A stretch of DNA of 64,000 bases from Hippea alviniae EP5-r (lineage in GTDB: Bacteria; Campylobacterota_A; Desulfurellia; Desulfurellales; Hippeaceae), in contig NZ_ATUV01000001.1 of assembly GCF_000420385.1 (NCBI RefSeq), positions 930,001-994,000 of the forward strand, in the 5' to 3' direction. The notes under the pieces are model-generated. The model was given only the letters and a program-made list of their open reading frames with translations, had not been told where the DNA came from and did not search any database. This document shows, in pieces, positions 50,316 to 56,750 of the stretch. Both the position numbers and the translations under genes were made by a program. Position 1 is the stretch's first letter. Each line of letters starts with the position of its first letter.

Positions 50316-51337
50316 GATCAAGTATAATTGCCTTTTTTCTGATAATCGTAACCATAGCGTTTTTTACTATAATGCTGCCGTTTTGGAAATCCTTTGTCTG
50401 GGGAATAACAATAGCCATTGTATTTTATCCAATATTCGACAAGATAAAAAAATCCTTAAAAAATAGAAACATAGCATCATTTTTAAGCATAATTATTGTG
50501 CTTTTGATTATAGCCCTGCCAATAACCCTTGCCGTATATATCATGGTTAACGAAACAGAAAAATTCATAGGCAATATAGACAAGATAAAGGTTGCATTCG
50601 AAAGCCTACTTTTGAAACTGCAAAACTTCTCAAAACTTAAGGTTTTTGCTCCATACATTGATAAAATCGACGAAGCTATATTTTCGCTTCTGCAAAACAC
50701 AGGTGTCTTAATAACAAAAAACATAGGTGCAATATTCTCTCAAACCTACAGCATCGTCGCCAATTTTCTATTTTCATTCATTATCGCCTTTTATCTAATC
50801 AGAGACAACGAAGAGTTTTTAGAGTATCTTTCAAATATAGTGGACGATAAAGAAGGCTTCTATAAAATACTAAAATCCATAAGGGACAGCATTAATGCAA
50901 CTGTATTAGGCGGCGTATTAACGGCACTTATTCAAGGAACCGTTGGTGCGGTGGGCTTTCTCATTGTTGGCTTAAACGCATTCTTCCTATGGCTGTTTCT
51001 CATTGCTATGTTTAGCTTTGTTCCTTTGGTTGGAACAGCAATCATTTGGCTTCCCGTAGGAATTTATTTGTTTGTTGAAGGTTCAATCGTAAAAGGTATA
51101 TTCATACTCGTCTGGGGTGTTGCAGCAATAGGCCTTGTGGATAATTATGTAAGACCACTGATAATTAGCAGCAAGATAAACATACATCCTATGATTCTCT
51201 TTTTTGCCATTTTAGGCTCTGTTATTGTTTTTGGCCCTATAGGAATTATTCTTGGCCCTGTTATTGTCTCTGTGGGCGATGCAATGGTAAAAATTTATGT
51301 CTCTTCCAAAAATAAGAGAAAGCTTAAAAACCTGTAA
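50312..51337 (+). CDS. AI-2E/PerM family membrane permease
   Basis: A 341-residue protein with about eight membrane segments. The family signature is the C-terminal block GPIGIILGPVIVSVGDAMVKIY preceded by VDNYVRPLIISSKINIHPMILFFAILGS. Members were named after TqsA, an autoinducer-2 exporter, but others are Na+/H+ antiporters or of unknown substrate. A central amphipathic stretch (100-150) is typical. It overlaps its two neighbours. Confidence 0.87.
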   Translation: MRSSIIAFFLIIVTIAFFTIMLPFWKSFVWGITIAIVFYPIFDKIKKSLKNRNIASFLSIIIVLLIIALPITLAVYIMVNETEKFIGNIDKIKVAFESLLLKLQNFSKLKVFAPYIDKIDEAIFSLLQNTGVLITKNIGAIFSQTYSIVANFLFSFIIAFYLIRDNEEFLEYLSNIVDDKEGFYKILKSIRDSINATVLGGVLTALIQGTVGAVGFLIVGLNAFFLWLFLIAMFSFVPLVGTAIIWLPVGIYLFVEGSIVKGIFILVWGVAAIGLVDNYVRPLIISSKINIHPMILFFAILGSVIVFGPIGIILGPVIVSVGDAMVKIYVSSKNKRKLKNL

Positions 51338-52598
51338 ACAGACAGCCAAATGCACCCATATAAACTGGGCGTATATAGTTATTCAAACATTGAAATGGAT
51401 ACCGTTTTCTATTCTATGTGGCACAATTATAGGATTGGTTGCGGCAGGATTCGACATAGCTGTTGTAAAAATAAACAATTTTCTTATCTCGCACAAAACA
51501 GCCTTAATCCTTTTTCCCATAATTGTCGCCATTACAACGGGCATACTCATAGAGAAGGATACATCAATAGCAGGTGCAGGCATAAATTACATCCTAAACC
51601 ACTTAAAAGAAGCTGCACCACCTATTAAACTGATTAAAAAAACACTAATAAGCATCTTGGCACTTTCTGGAGTATTCATAGCAGGCAGAGAAGGGCCATC
51701 ATTCTTCATCGGCTCATCACTCTCTCTATACCTATCAAAGCTATTTAAGATAGATAATTCCCTAAAAGATAGAGTCGCACTTATCGGTGCAGGTGCATTT
51801 ACATCAGCCCTTTTAAAGGCGCCCTTAGGTGGTGCAATCTTTGCATTGGAGATAAGATACACATCGGATATGGAGTATGAGTTCTTCCCACAAACGCTGA
51901 TAGCATCAATATTTAGTTATATGGTCTTTTCTTTTTTTAGAAGCAAACATAGTCTTGTAAGCATAAGCTCTGCCAATATATCATACTCAATACACTCACT
52001 ATTTCTTCTTATGGTTCTTGGCATTGTAATATCAATTATGGCATATATCTTCATCACAATCTTTCATCTTTCAAACTGCTTATCTGGTTTTGCAAGGCCT
52101 ATACTGAGACCTTTGATTGGTGTTGTTTTTGCCCTGCCCTTTATTTTCATAATAGCAAAATACAACTCTATAGACCTGCTCAACGCAAGCGTAAATTACA
52201 AGGCTTTAAGCAACATAGCAAATCTAACACTTAACCCTTACTATGCCCTGATAATGCTATTTTTAACAATGGCAAGCGTGTCTCTAACAATAGGGTTTGG
52301 AATTTCTGGCGGATTAATCTTACCGTCGCTTATAATGGGTGCACTTTTGGGCAATATAATGGCAACAGTCTTTGGCGAAAACTTAACCCTGTTTGCTCTC
52401 TCAGGAATGGCTGCATCATTAGCCGCTGTTGCCAAAACACCACTTGCCGCAATAGTACTTGTTCTTGAGTTGTCTCAAACAGATTTAATTATACCACTCA
52501 CAGCTTCAGTAATTGTAAGCTACATATTCACATACGGTTTAAGCATCTATACATCCCAGAAAGCATGCAAGCTGTTTAACGAATACCATGAAAAATAA
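51297..52598 (+). CDS. ClC family chloride channel/antiporter
   Basis: A 433-residue membrane protein. The gate motif AGREGPSFFIGSSLSLYLSK contains the gating glutamate. GGAIFALEI and GISGGLILPSLIMGALLGN (GxFxP-type) follow, with the C-terminal VLELSQTDLIIPLTASV helix. There are no CBS domains. Whether it is a channel or a Cl-/H+ exchanger cannot be settled. The start overlaps the previous gene by 41 bases; the message may be shared. A promoter for flhA starts inside its last codons. Confidence 0.88.
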   Translation: MSLPKIRESLKTCKQTAKCTHINWAYIVIQTLKWIPFSILCGTIIGLVAAGFDIAVVKINNFLISHKTALILFPIIVAITTGILIEKDTSIAGAGINYILNHLKEAAPPIKLIKKTLISILALSGVFIAGREGPSFFIGSSLSLYLSKLFKIDNSLKDRVALIGAGAFTSALLKAPLGGAIFALEIRYTSDMEYEFFPQTLIASIFSYMVFSFFRSKHSLVSISSANISYSIHSLFLLMVLGIVISIMAYIFITIFHLSNCLSGFARPILRPLIGVVFALPFIFIIAKYNSIDLLNASVNYKALSNIANLTLNPYYALIMLFLTMASVSLTIGFGISGGLILPSLIMGALLGNIMATVFGENLTLFALSGMAASLAAVAKTPLAAIVLVLELSQTDLIIPLTASVIVSYIFTYGLSIYTSQKACKLFNEYHEK

Positions 52599-52616
52599 CA
52601 ACAAAGATGCTATAAT
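52588..52616 (+). promoter_or_regulatory. promoter of flhA-flhF-flhG-ccdA
   Basis: ATGAAA (52588-52593), 17-base spacer, perfect TATAAT (52611-52616). Transcription near 52623 would give a leader of about 27 bases that contains the GGAGG site before the ATA start. Confidence 0.55.
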
Positions 52617-52649
52617 GTTAATTTTGAGAGCAGAAGAAGGAGGGCAGCG

Positions 52650-54704
52650 ATAAAAAACATAAAACTCAGCGACTTTAGTGTCGTCTTAACAGTAATAGCA
52701 ATATTCGCCGTTTTAGTCATACCACTACCGGGATTTATTATAGATTTTTTGGTTTCAACATCATTTGCTTTGGCTCTGCTTATATTCTTCATAAGCGTAT
52801 ATGTTCCAAGACCGCTGGATTTCTCAACATTTCCATCGATTCTGCTTGCCGTAACACTCTTTAGGCTATCTCTAAATGTTGCAACAACAAGGGCAATACT
52901 CCTGCATGGCAGTCAAACACCCGAAGCAGCAGGAAAGATGATAGAAACATTTGGATATTTCGTTGTTGGCGGAAACTATGTCGTTGGCTTAATCGTATTT
53001 ATCATTCTTGTCATAATAAACTTTGTTGTCATCACAAAAGGTGCAGGCAGGGTAGCAGAAGTTGCAGCAAGGTTTACTCTCGATGCAATGCCAGGAAAAC
53101 AGATGAGCATTGATGCAGATTTAAACGCAGGACTGATAGATGAGAAGGAAGCTCGAAGAAGAAGAGAAGAGATAGCTCGTCAGGCTGACTTTTATGGCGC
53201 AATGGACGGTGCAAGTAAGTTTGTTCGCGGTGATGCTATAGCAGGTTTATTAATAACGGCAATAAATATTATCGGCGGTATAATTATTGGAGTCCTGCAG
53301 CATCACATGAGCTTATCGGCTGCTGCAAGCAGATACACAGTTTTAACCATCGGCGATGGTCTTGTAAGCCAACTTCCTGCTCTAACCGTATCAACAGCGG
53401 CAGGTATAATCATCACAAGAAGCTCAGAAGAAGTGAACTTATCAGAAAATATAGTAAATCAGCTTATAAATCAGTATCAAACTCTCTATATTGCTGCTGT
53501 TGTGCTGATTGTTTTATCACTTGTTCCCGGAATGCCAACACTCCATCTAACAACGCTTGCTTTAATACTTGCGGGCATAGCATACTCCATATCTGCCCAA
53601 AAGAAAAAGAAAGAAGAAGCCAAAGAACTTGAAGAATCCGAAGAAGAACAGCCGCAAGAAGAGATAACAATGGAAGATATAGAAGAAGCCGTAAAGGTTG
53701 ACTTACTGGAACTTAAGATAGGCTATGGACTAATAAGCTTTGTTGATGAAAAAAATGGCGGTGGCTTAATAAAGAGAATAAAGTTAATGCGCAAACAGAT
53801 AGCTTCAGAGCTTGGTGTTATTGTGCCATCGATCAGGATTAGAGACGATTTAAATCTCGACAGAAATGAGTATGTCTTCTTAATAAAGGGCATAGAAGTT
53901 GCACGATACACGGTTTATCCTGATAAGTTTTTGGCAATGAAACCCGGCGGCGGCTCAGACATAGAAGGTATACCAACGAAAGAGCCTGCCTTTGGACTTG
54001 ATGCCATCTGGATTGACGGTTCAATCAAAAGCACAGCAATTGTTAAAGGATACACAGTTGTCGACCCTGTTACCGTTATAATCACACACATAACTGAGAT
54101 AATTAAAACACATATATCCGACATATTCACCCGTCAAGATGCAAGCAAACTTCTCGACACAATAAAGGAAGAGTATCCAAAGATTATAGAAGAACTAACA
54201 AATCAATTACCCTTAGGCACGATACACAAAATACTTAAAAATCTTCTAAGTGAAGGTGTGCCGGTAAAAGACATGATAACAATTGCAGAAACCCTAACGG
54301 ATTATGCCGTTTACACAAAAGACCCTGATGTGTTGACAGAGTATGTAAGAATGGCGCTTGCAAATCACATATCAAACAAATACAAAGATGAGAACAACAC
54401 GATAAATGTTATAACTTTGGGAAGCAATGTTGACGGTATAATAAATGCGAACTTAAAGGAACAGAACGGAATGACATATCTTGACTTACCACCAAACATA
54501 AGCGAAAAGTTGATAGAAAAAACCCAACAGGTAATATCTGAAGTTGTTGAAAACGGCATAGAGCCAATTATCTTGACATCACCCAAAATAAGAAGATACT
54601 TTAAAGGATTCTTGCAAAGGTTTTTCCCGAAAATTCCGGTTATCTCATACGCTGAGATAGCCGAAGGCATTCAGATAAACAGCGTAGGAACAATTGAGTT
54701 ATGA
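52650..54704 (+). CDS. flhA: flagellar export gate protein FlhA (apparent ATA start)
   Basis: About 684 residues. The membrane part (1-320) includes YVPRPLDFSTFPSILLAVTLFRLSLNVATTR and FTLDAMPGKQMSIDADLNAG (FHIPEP signature); the cytoplasmic domain follows. The first canonical start codon in frame is a TTG at 52749, but the 33 codons before it encode the conserved first helix (FAVLVIPLPGFIIDFL). Between the previous in-frame stop (52596-52598) and 52749 there is no ATG, GTG or TTG. GGAGG (52639-52643) stands 6 bases before an ATA at 52650, which I take as the start. A mutation or sequence error from ATG is the alternative. Confidence 0.88.
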   Translation: MKNIKLSDFSVVLTVIAIFAVLVIPLPGFIIDFLVSTSFALALLIFFISVYVPRPLDFSTFPSILLAVTLFRLSLNVATTRAILLHGSQTPEAAGKMIETFGYFVVGGNYVVGLIVFIILVIINFVVITKGAGRVAEVAARFTLDAMPGKQMSIDADLNAGLIDEKEARRRREEIARQADFYGAMDGASKFVRGDAIAGLLITAINIIGGIIIGVLQHHMSLSAAASRYTVLTIGDGLVSQLPALTVSTAAGIIITRSSEEVNLSENIVNQLINQYQTLYIAAVVLIVLSLVPGMPTLHLTTLALILAGIAYSISAQKKKKEEAKELEESEEEQPQEEITMEDIEEAVKVDLLELKIGYGLISFVDEKNGGGLIKRIKLMRKQIASELGVIVPSIRIRDDLNLDRNEYVFLIKGIEVARYTVYPDKFLAMKPGGGSDIEGIPTKEPAFGLDAIWIDGSIKSTAIVKGYTVVDPVTVIITHITEIIKTHISDIFTRQDASKLLDTIKEEYPKIIEELTNQLPLGTIHKILKNLLSEGVPVKDMITIAETLTDYAVYTKDPDVLTEYVRMALANHISNKYKDENNTINVITLGSNVDGIINANLKEQNGMTYLDLPPNISEKLIEKTQQVISEVVENGIEPIILTSPKIRRYFKGFLQRFFPKIPVISYAEIAEGIQINSVGTIEL

Positions 54705-55897
54705 TAGTAAAAACATACAGAGCAAACACCGTTCAAGAAGCCTTAAAAAAGATAAAGGCTGAATTGGGCGAAGATGCCATAATACTCTCATCAAAAAAGG
54801 TAAAAAAAGGCGGATTCTTCTCTTTCTTTAAAAAAGAGATATACGAAGTAACAGCAGCTGTTGACGATAAACCGCCAAAACAGAACAGAAGTTTTGAAGC
54901 TGTCGCTAAAAAATATGCCAAAGTAGAGTTTTCTCAAAAGAAACAGAGCGAAACAGAGAAACTTGAAGAGAGAGTAAAGAAATTAGAGCAGCTTATCGTA
55001 TCGGCAGGCAAAGAGAGTATAGAAAAGCTCGTAAGCGATATAAAAGCCGACCTAAACGACCTAAAGACAGCCATAAACTATGTAAAAAAGGATAATGATG
55101 TTGACATATCAAAGATACCACTTGGAATGAATAAATACTTCACATATATGTGTGAGATAGGAATAAAGAGAAAATATGCATACAAAATAGCTATTGGACT
55201 TTACAAAACCATAGACAAAACCAGACTAAACGATGAAGAGTATGTGAAAGAGTATCTATCGGCTGTATTGTCTCAATTCTTCAAAAAAAGCATACCAACA
55301 AACAAAAATATCGTTCTTTTAGGGCCAACAGGTGTAGGAAAAACAACAACTTTGGCCAAACTTGCGGCTATTTACAAGCTAAAAATGGACAAAAAGGTTG
55401 GCATAATAACAACAGACACATACAGAATCGGAGCAGTTGACCAGCTTTTAAACTATGCAAAGATAATGGACATACCAGCAATTGTAAGCATAACAAAGGA
55501 AGACTTTATCAATGCCATCGAAGAGCTGAAAGACACGGATGTCGTGCTGGTTGACACCGTCGGAAGAAGTCCTAACGACATAAAAAGGCTCAAAGAGATT
55601 TTTGGAATGTTTCAAGGAGACACAAGGCTTCATCTGTCGCTTGTAATTGCAATAAACACAAAGGAAGAAGACTGCCTTAATACATTCAAACAATTCTCAA
55701 CACTTCCGATAAACGACTTAATATTCACGAAGGTAGATGAGACAAAGACACCGGGAACAATGTTAAACTTGGTCGTAAAGCTAAAGAAACCCGTGGCTTG
55801 GGTCTCATACGGACAGGATGTGCCGGATGATATCATGGAAGCAGAGCCTTTAAAAATCTCATCCTTAATCGTAAAAAGGAGAGTCCAAAATGGCTGA
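54701..55897 (+). CDS. flhF: flagellar SRP-like GTPase FlhF
   Basis: A 398-residue protein. An N-terminal B domain (1-60: VQEALKKIKAELGEDAIILSSKKVKKGGFFSFF) and a coiled linker are followed by the NG GTPase domain. The P-loop is GPTGVGKTTTLAKLA (about 207-221), with TTDTYRIGAVDQL and VLVDTVGRSP. It sets the place and number of flagella, usually at the pole, together with FlhG. It overlaps flhA by 4 bases and flhG by 8. Confidence 0.94.
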   Translation: MIVKTYRANTVQEALKKIKAELGEDAIILSSKKVKKGGFFSFFKKEIYEVTAAVDDKPPKQNRSFEAVAKKYAKVEFSQKKQSETEKLEERVKKLEQLIVSAGKESIEKLVSDIKADLNDLKTAINYVKKDNDVDISKIPLGMNKYFTYMCEIGIKRKYAYKIAIGLYKTIDKTRLNDEEYVKEYLSAVLSQFFKKSIPTNKNIVLLGPTGVGKTTTLAKLAAIYKLKMDKKVGIITTDTYRIGAVDQLLNYAKIMDIPAIVSITKEDFINAIEELKDTDVVLVDTVGRSPNDIKRLKEIFGMFQGDTRLHLSLVIAINTKEEDCLNTFKQFSTLPINDLIFTKVDETKTPGTMLNLVVKLKKPVAWVSYGQDVPDDIMEAEPLKISSLIVKRRVQNG

Positions 55898-56750
55898 CCA
55901 AGCTGAAAAGTTAAGAGAGATGGTCGAAAAAAAGAATAAAGAGAACAAAAAGAGATACAGGGTTATAGCATTTACAAGTGGCAAAGGTGGTGTAGGCAAA
56001 ACAAATATGGTTGCAAATATCGCATACCTTTTAAGTAGCATAGGGAAAAAGGTTGTCGTATTTGATGCAGATTTAGGCCTTGCAAACATAGATATACTGC
56101 TTGGATTAAAAAGCAAATATTCTTTAATCGATGTCGTAAAGAGCGGTAAAAAACTCAAAGAGATAATGATAAAGGTAAATGATAATTTCCAAGTGATACC
56201 TGCAGGCAGTGGTATAGAAGAGATAGCAAATATCAACGAGCCAATATTTTCAAAGATAAAAGACGAGCTGATAGATATAACCAAAGAGACTGACATACTC
56301 CTTATCGACACAGGTGCAGGTATATCAAGAAAGGTTACATTCTTCCTAAAAAGCTCAGAAGAGATTGTTGTAATAACAACGCCCGAGCCAACAGCATTGG
56401 CAGATGCATACGCAATGCTAAAAATAACTTCGACAAATTACAAAAAAGATAAAGTCAGCGTATTCGTGAATATGGCAAAAAATAAACAAGAAGCAGAAAA
56501 TACATTCAACAATCTCAACAAGATATGCAAAAAGTTTCTAAACAAAGAGTTTAAAAGCTCAGGATACGCTTTAATTGATAAAAACCTACCCGCAGCAGTA
56601 AAGCAACAGAAACCAATAGCTGAACTCTATCCCAATAGTGCCTTTACAATATCTATGAAAAAGTTTATAAATAACATGTTTAAAGAAAATATAAAGATTC
56701 GGGAAAATCCAATCGCCCGATTCTTTGCATCAATTTTTGGTGGAGGCTAA
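55890..56750 (+). CDS. flhG: flagellar number regulator FlhG (MinD/FleN-like ATPase)
   Basis: A 286-residue P-loop ATPase with the deviant Walker A motif SGKGGVGKTNMVANIA, DADLGLANIDILLG and LIDTGAGISRKVTFFL. A short N-terminal segment (1-25) resembles the helix that stimulates FlhF. The C-terminal amphipathic region allows membrane binding. It limits flagellar number. In many genomes fliA follows; here a ccdA gene does. Confidence 0.92.
   Translation: MADQAEKLREMVEKKNKENKKRYRVIAFTSGKGGVGKTNMVANIAYLLSSIGKKVVVFDADLGLANIDILLGLKSKYSLIDVVKSGKKLKEIMIKVNDNFQVIPAGSGIEEIANINEPIFSKIKDELIDITKETDILLIDTGAGISRKVTFFLKSSEEIVVITTPEPTALADAYAMLKITSTNYKKDKVSVFVNMAKNKQEAENTFNNLNKICKKFLNKEFKSSGYALIDKNLPAAVKQQKPIAELYPNSAFTISMKKFINNMFKENIKIRENPIARFFASIFGGG

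Follow-up and report, generated by a model that had tools for sequence, protein, structure and literature searches.

Organization of the flhA locus

The window analyzed here, a 64,000-nucleotide stretch of the Hippea alviniae EP5-r genome (G000; contig NZ_ATUV01000001.1, positions 930,001 to 994,000), carries on its plus strand flhA (positions 52650 to 54704), specifying the 684-amino-acid flagellar type III export gate protein, followed by flhF (54701 to 55897) and an flhG-like gene for a MinD-family ATPase (55890 to 56750). The flhF product matches TIGR03499 (FlhF) with 232 bits, while the MinD-family matches of the third gene product fall below their cut-offs, its flhG designation being based on gene order. 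The upstream neighbor of flhA (51297 to 52598, plus strand) specifies a ClcA-like chloride channel, with a profile match below the cut-off, and is not constant across the family.

The flhA frame (52599 to 54704) is opened by a TAA at 52596 to 52598, from which 50 in-frame codons separate the first canonical triplet, a TTG at 52749 to 52751; neither ATG, GTG nor TTG occurs in frame before it. The 18th codon after the stop is an ATA (52650 to 52652), and 33 codons, this ATA counted, lead from it to the TTG. Up to the ATA the frame consists of CAA CAA AGA TGC TAT AAT GTT AAT TTT GAG AGC AGA AGA AGG AGG GCA GCG, thus passing through promoter-like and ribosome-binding sequences, and it continues beyond the ATA with AAA AAC ATA AAA CTC AGC. 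Taken alone, the 17 start-free codons 5′ of the ATA are unremarkable. The ATA is, however, a near-cognate triplet with a Shine-Dalgarno sequence at normal spacing, namely AAGGAGG (52637 to 52643) followed by the six-nucleotide spacer GCAGCG, and the predicted anti-Shine-Dalgarno duplex (−12.7 kcal/mol) is the strongest among the genomes compared. Further upstream, a TATAAT (52611 to 52616) lies 33 nucleotides 5′ of the ATA, with TGC just before it and ATGAAA 17 nucleotides further up; the resulting promoter-like site (52588 to 52616, plus strand) has 10 of 12 promoter matches, and the TATAAT is present 5′ of flhA in all eight congeners. Folding of the flhA leader RNA revealed no notable structure (z = +1.14). 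The preliminary description of this locus had reported the absence of a canonical start before the TTG, the Shine-Dalgarno sequence, the ATA and the TATAAT, all of whose coordinates hold on the window sequence.

Coding character of the region upstream of the first canonical triplet

The product initiated at the ATA matches the NCBIfam FlhA equivalog TIGR01398 across profile positions 3 to 678 of 678 (residues 8 to 682 of the protein; 919 bits versus a cut-off of 772), while its score against the injectisome protein SctV (663) is below the cut-off of 692 for that model, identifying it as a full-length FlhA equivalog. Among eight congeners, the variable columns within codons 2 to 33 are distributed as 10, 7 and 30 across codon positions 1, 2 and 3, whereas the 12 codons 5′ of the ATA, compared without gaps, are variable in every column (12, 12 and 12); coding constraint thus begins at about the ATA. 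Codons 2 to 33, which include the first helix of FlhA, are under clear protein-level selection and, together with the profile match, this confirms the earlier proposal that the 33 codons 5′ of the TTG encode the FlhA N-terminal helix. The position of the TTG is occupied by CTT, CTC or TTA in most relatives, and no Shine-Dalgarno sequence precedes it. In certain relatives canonical triplets are also scarce after the start, with none among the first 60 codons of flhA in G006 and none before codon 40 in G003.

Conservation of the flhA start codon

Comparison of close relatives at this codon, as suggested in the preliminary description, was possible for 15 of 16 family genomes, representing five genera, from which flhA was recovered. 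The homologous start codon is ATA or ATT, accompanied by a Shine-Dalgarno sequence, in 12 of these 15 genomes (four to five genera): ATA in G000, G009, G010, G011, G013, G014 and G015 (and possibly also G012), and ATT in G001, G002, G003, G006 and G007. In nine genomes (G000, G001, G002, G003, G009, G010, G011, G014 and G015), the frame from the preceding stop to the ATA/ATT contains no canonical start, and in G010 a TAG stop forms the codon directly 5′ of the ATA; the non-canonical flhA start is conserved between species and, in these nine, has no canonical alternative upstream. The nearest canonical triplet in G006 and G013 is a GTG within the Shine-Dalgarno sequence, and that in G007 is an ATG which adjoins this sequence and has no Shine-Dalgarno sequence of its own; anti-Shine-Dalgarno duplex energies at normal spacing favor the ATA/ATT over these upstream triplets in all three genomes. 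G012 is ambiguous, as its Shine-Dalgarno sequence is weak and an ATG, which it could use, is located six codons upstream.

The ATA/ATT codon has been lost in G004 and G008, which share 97% and 95% identity, respectively, over the N-terminal query, and flhA of both has an in-frame ATG six codons upstream; the weak start is thus not indispensable. This ATG (L002 in G004, L004 in G008) lies nine bases after the TATAAT, with little or no Shine-Dalgarno sequence, a spacing which suggests that the flhA mRNA of these two genomes may be leaderless. High levels of initiation factor IF3 are known to inhibit some leaderless mRNAs (PMC9031893), and it might be speculated from the same spacing that IF3 sensitivity is kept by another route in this pair.

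Across the 15 family genomes no canonical start triplet occurs at the aligned codon, while ATA and ATT interchange. The sister family f2, in contrast, has ATG at exactly the aligned codon (three genomes), and elsewhere a canonical start is located 5′ of the first helix in 76 of 77 flhA genes, the single exception being on a low-coverage metagenome-assembled contig. The gene upstream of flhA differs between genera; the start has been kept while its neighborhood has changed. It appears most likely that flhA has started with AUA or AUU since the base of the family. For the direction of this change, from ATG to ATA, the main grounds are the sister family and the genus and family labels; a single FlhA tree gives only moderate support for pairing G004 with G008 and provides no firm root for the family. 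Based on the FlhA profile match, the codon-position variation and the occurrence of ATA/ATT in 12 of 15 family genomes, the flhA ATA is beyond chance, and translation of flhA very probably begins at the AUA at position 52650.

Other non-canonical starts in the genome

A coding-potential scan of 864 kb, or approximately half of G000 (799 gene calls; upstream extensions shorter than about 20 codons would be missed), detected strong coding signal 5′ of the first canonical start in only four genes, being yraN, infC, a gene for a LivH-like ABC permease, and flhA. The prfB gene (C1:356406-357452, L151), whose known release factor 2 +1 frameshift signal, AGGAGTATCTTTGACC, served as a positive control, ranked slightly below these four. 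Coding signal extending 5′ of the first canonical triplet was also observed for a histidine kinase gene (C1:757356-758339, minus strand, L171) and a glnE-like gene (C1:702275-705004, minus strand, L169).

The infC gene, which encodes IF3 (C1:277283-277828, L121; other family and sister-family copies among L120-L132 and L243-L245), has an ATA start preceded by AGGAGGTGAT in each of the 13 complete copies from the family, and is in this respect the equivalent of Escherichia coli infC with its AUU start. Sister-family infC also lacks a canonical start and apparently initiates at an ATA preceded by AGGGGGTG. The start of the LivH-like permease gene (C1:447058-447933, minus strand, L174; orthologues L175-L187) is ATA in 13 of the 14 family genomes that carry this gene and ATT in the remaining one (G013), with no canonical in-frame start upstream in any of them; it is mostly located behind a GGAGG-type Shine-Dalgarno sequence, and in 8 of the 14 an in-frame stop occurs one or two codons earlier. 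The yraN gene (UPF0102; C1:103120-103506, minus strand, L139; orthologues L247-L261) overlaps the end of rplS, and its conserved core is not preceded by any ATG, GTG or TTG in 14 of the 15 genomes. Candidate starts are ATT, ACT or TCT at the rplS stop, or a CTG upstream, and yraN is perhaps translated by termination-reinitiation. A scan of G004 (780 kb, 649 gene calls) likewise placed yraN at the top of the list. The infC gene was not found in this single-contig genome, in which 5,000 N positions within 780 kb point to a masked region rather than to a true loss of the gene.

AUA and AUU starts in this family are, on sequence evidence, few, gene specific and conserved. A genome which is generally lax in start selection was considered and rejected, as only 4 of 799 gene calls are involved and the partner gene flhB starts with ATG in all 15 genomes where it was found. 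Among the 800 kb scanned for an AUA-reading initiator tRNA, only Met-type tRNAs with a CAU anticodon and no tRNA with a UAU anticodon were present; one encoded elsewhere in the genome is possible.

Proposed mechanism of flhA expression and alternative explanations

We propose, with a probability of roughly 0.7, that the conserved AUA start, discriminated against by IF3, keeps FlhA low and probably, through an ATGA overlap, FlhF and FlhG as well. The ancestral AUG, as retained in the sister family, would have been replaced by AUA or AUU in this family. The fMet-tRNA would read AUA with a third-position mismatch, its CAU anticodon pairing at two positions, and the strong, well-placed Shine-Dalgarno sequence would partly compensate for the weak codon. 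IF3 would nonetheless discriminate against the AUA, rendering flhA output low and sensitive to IF3. Lowered FlhA is expected by analogy with published AUA/AUU reporter data, and FlhA output is expected to fall with more IF3 and to rise in IF3 fidelity mutants (by analogy with PMC5472188). The flhF ATG overlaps the flhA stop as ATGA (54701 to 54704), a four-nucleotide overlap found in every one of the 18 genomes compared (17 with ATGA, and the outlier G020 with TTGA), and flhF in turn overlaps flhG, arrangements by which the limitation would be passed on to the regulators of flagellar position and number; the weak flhA start is, therefore, believed probably to limit FlhF and FlhG also. These two proteins control the place and number of flagella in polar flagellates (PMC7226244). 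The low FlhA output, its IF3 dependence, the coupling of flhF and flhG, and a selective reason for the arrangement are inferred. Because the pattern is family-wide and shared with infC, flhA looks like a case of deliberate low-level expression, and not like a broken gene.

The best surviving alternative, which we nevertheless consider unlikely, is that initiation at AUA/AUU does occur but is neutral, an ancestral ATG-to-ATA change having been compensated by a strong Shine-Dalgarno sequence and promoter without any regulatory use. Such a history is consistent with the strong Shine-Dalgarno sequences and conserved −10 element that accompany ATA/ATT and with the move of two congeners to an upstream ATG, and neutral persistence of ATA could occur if the level of FlhA is buffered. 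Reversion of ATA to ATG, however, requires a single transition, yet the family has only interchanged ATA with ATT, and both infC and the LivH-like permease gene keep the same class of start.

Entry from an out-of-frame mini-ORF (52615 to 52653, plus strand), through a −1 slip or through reinitiation after termination at ATAA, was suggested by the overlap of its TAA stop with the ATA; it is rejected as very improbable, since its ATG overlaps the −10 box and lies 5′ of the point at which the transcript is expected to begin, and no equivalent mini-ORF is conserved among genera that differ in their upstream genes. Still more remote is translation from the TTG at 52749, which automatic annotation would pick as the first canonical start and which would cost FlhA its first transmembrane helix: the TTG is an unconserved internal leucine codon without a Shine-Dalgarno sequence, preceded by codons under protein-coding constraint and by a profile match from residue 8 of the ATA-started protein. 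Equally negligible is a sequencing error or a recent ATG-to-ATA mutation impairing flhA, which, although ATA is one transition away from ATG, is excluded by the retention of ATA or ATT at the equivalent codon in 11 other, separately assembled family genomes and by an intact reading frame for 684 amino acids with an N terminus under purifying selection. The preliminary description had left two options, use of the ATA with throttled synthesis or an impairing change from ATG; the former is upheld as regards the start codon, with infC and the LivH-like gene behaving likewise, while the latter is abandoned.

Beyond the throttling of flhA itself, infC, flhA (with its coupled flhF and flhG), the LivH-like permease gene and perhaps yraN could constitute a translational regulon read by IF3, an extension that we regard as tentative and rather doubtful. 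If true, the IF3 level, self-set through the same codon, would also set the amounts of export-gate and flagellum-number proteins and of an amino-acid transporter, so that motility and uptake would follow the condition of the translation machinery.

Relation to known non-canonical starts and implications

IF3 is known to repress non-canonical starts, including the conserved GTC start of Streptomyces sigR (PMC5472188). In Staphylococcus aureus, infC and ccpN start with AUA and cvfC1 with AUU, all behind strong Shine-Dalgarno sequences and conserved, with ccpN and cvfC1 yielding approximately 10% of the output of AUG, a figure that for ccpN reaches 30% when the medium is rich (PMC13009471). When the ATG of E. 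coli rpoS was accidentally changed to ATA, protein levels fell by as much as five-fold (PMC12864459).

The flhA start resembles that of infC (ATT in E. coli, AUA in S. aureus and ATC in Streptomyces) in being non-canonical, conserved and preceded by a strong Shine-Dalgarno sequence; infC, however, is autoregulated and its product is IF3, whereas FlhA takes no part in initiation, and any effect of IF3 on flhA would accordingly be one-way. Like flhA, sigR has a genus-wide non-canonical start with a strong Shine-Dalgarno sequence that is misannotated by pipelines, and in sigR this start sets protein dose; it nevertheless involves another codon, gene and phylum, and IF3 repression is proven for sigR but is an analogy for flhA. 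The ccpN (AUA) of S. aureus and Bacillus subtilis and the staphylococcal cvfC1 (AUU) likewise combine strong Shine-Dalgarno sequences with conservation between species, although their starts were demonstrated by ribosome profiling and reporters, unlike the sequence-based case of flhA, and they specify a regulator and a small protein, respectively, rather than a flagellar export gate. The AUU start of E. coli pcnB, which limits dose, is similarly non-canonical but belongs to a different gene. To our knowledge, very few bacterial genes have a documented conserved non-canonical start, and annotation pipelines hide such starts. The open-access literature yielded neither a paper on both Hippea and flhA nor a description of a non-AUG flhA.

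The flhA gene is an unexpected addition to this known class, and it is likely that flhA, infC, the LivH-like permease gene and yraN are misannotated across the family wherever only ATG, GTG and TTG are allowed. A core flagellar gene with a family-wide AUA/AUU start, alongside infC, represents a clean natural case which bears on whether IF3 regulates beyond itself and on whether the dose of FlhA limits flagellum number.
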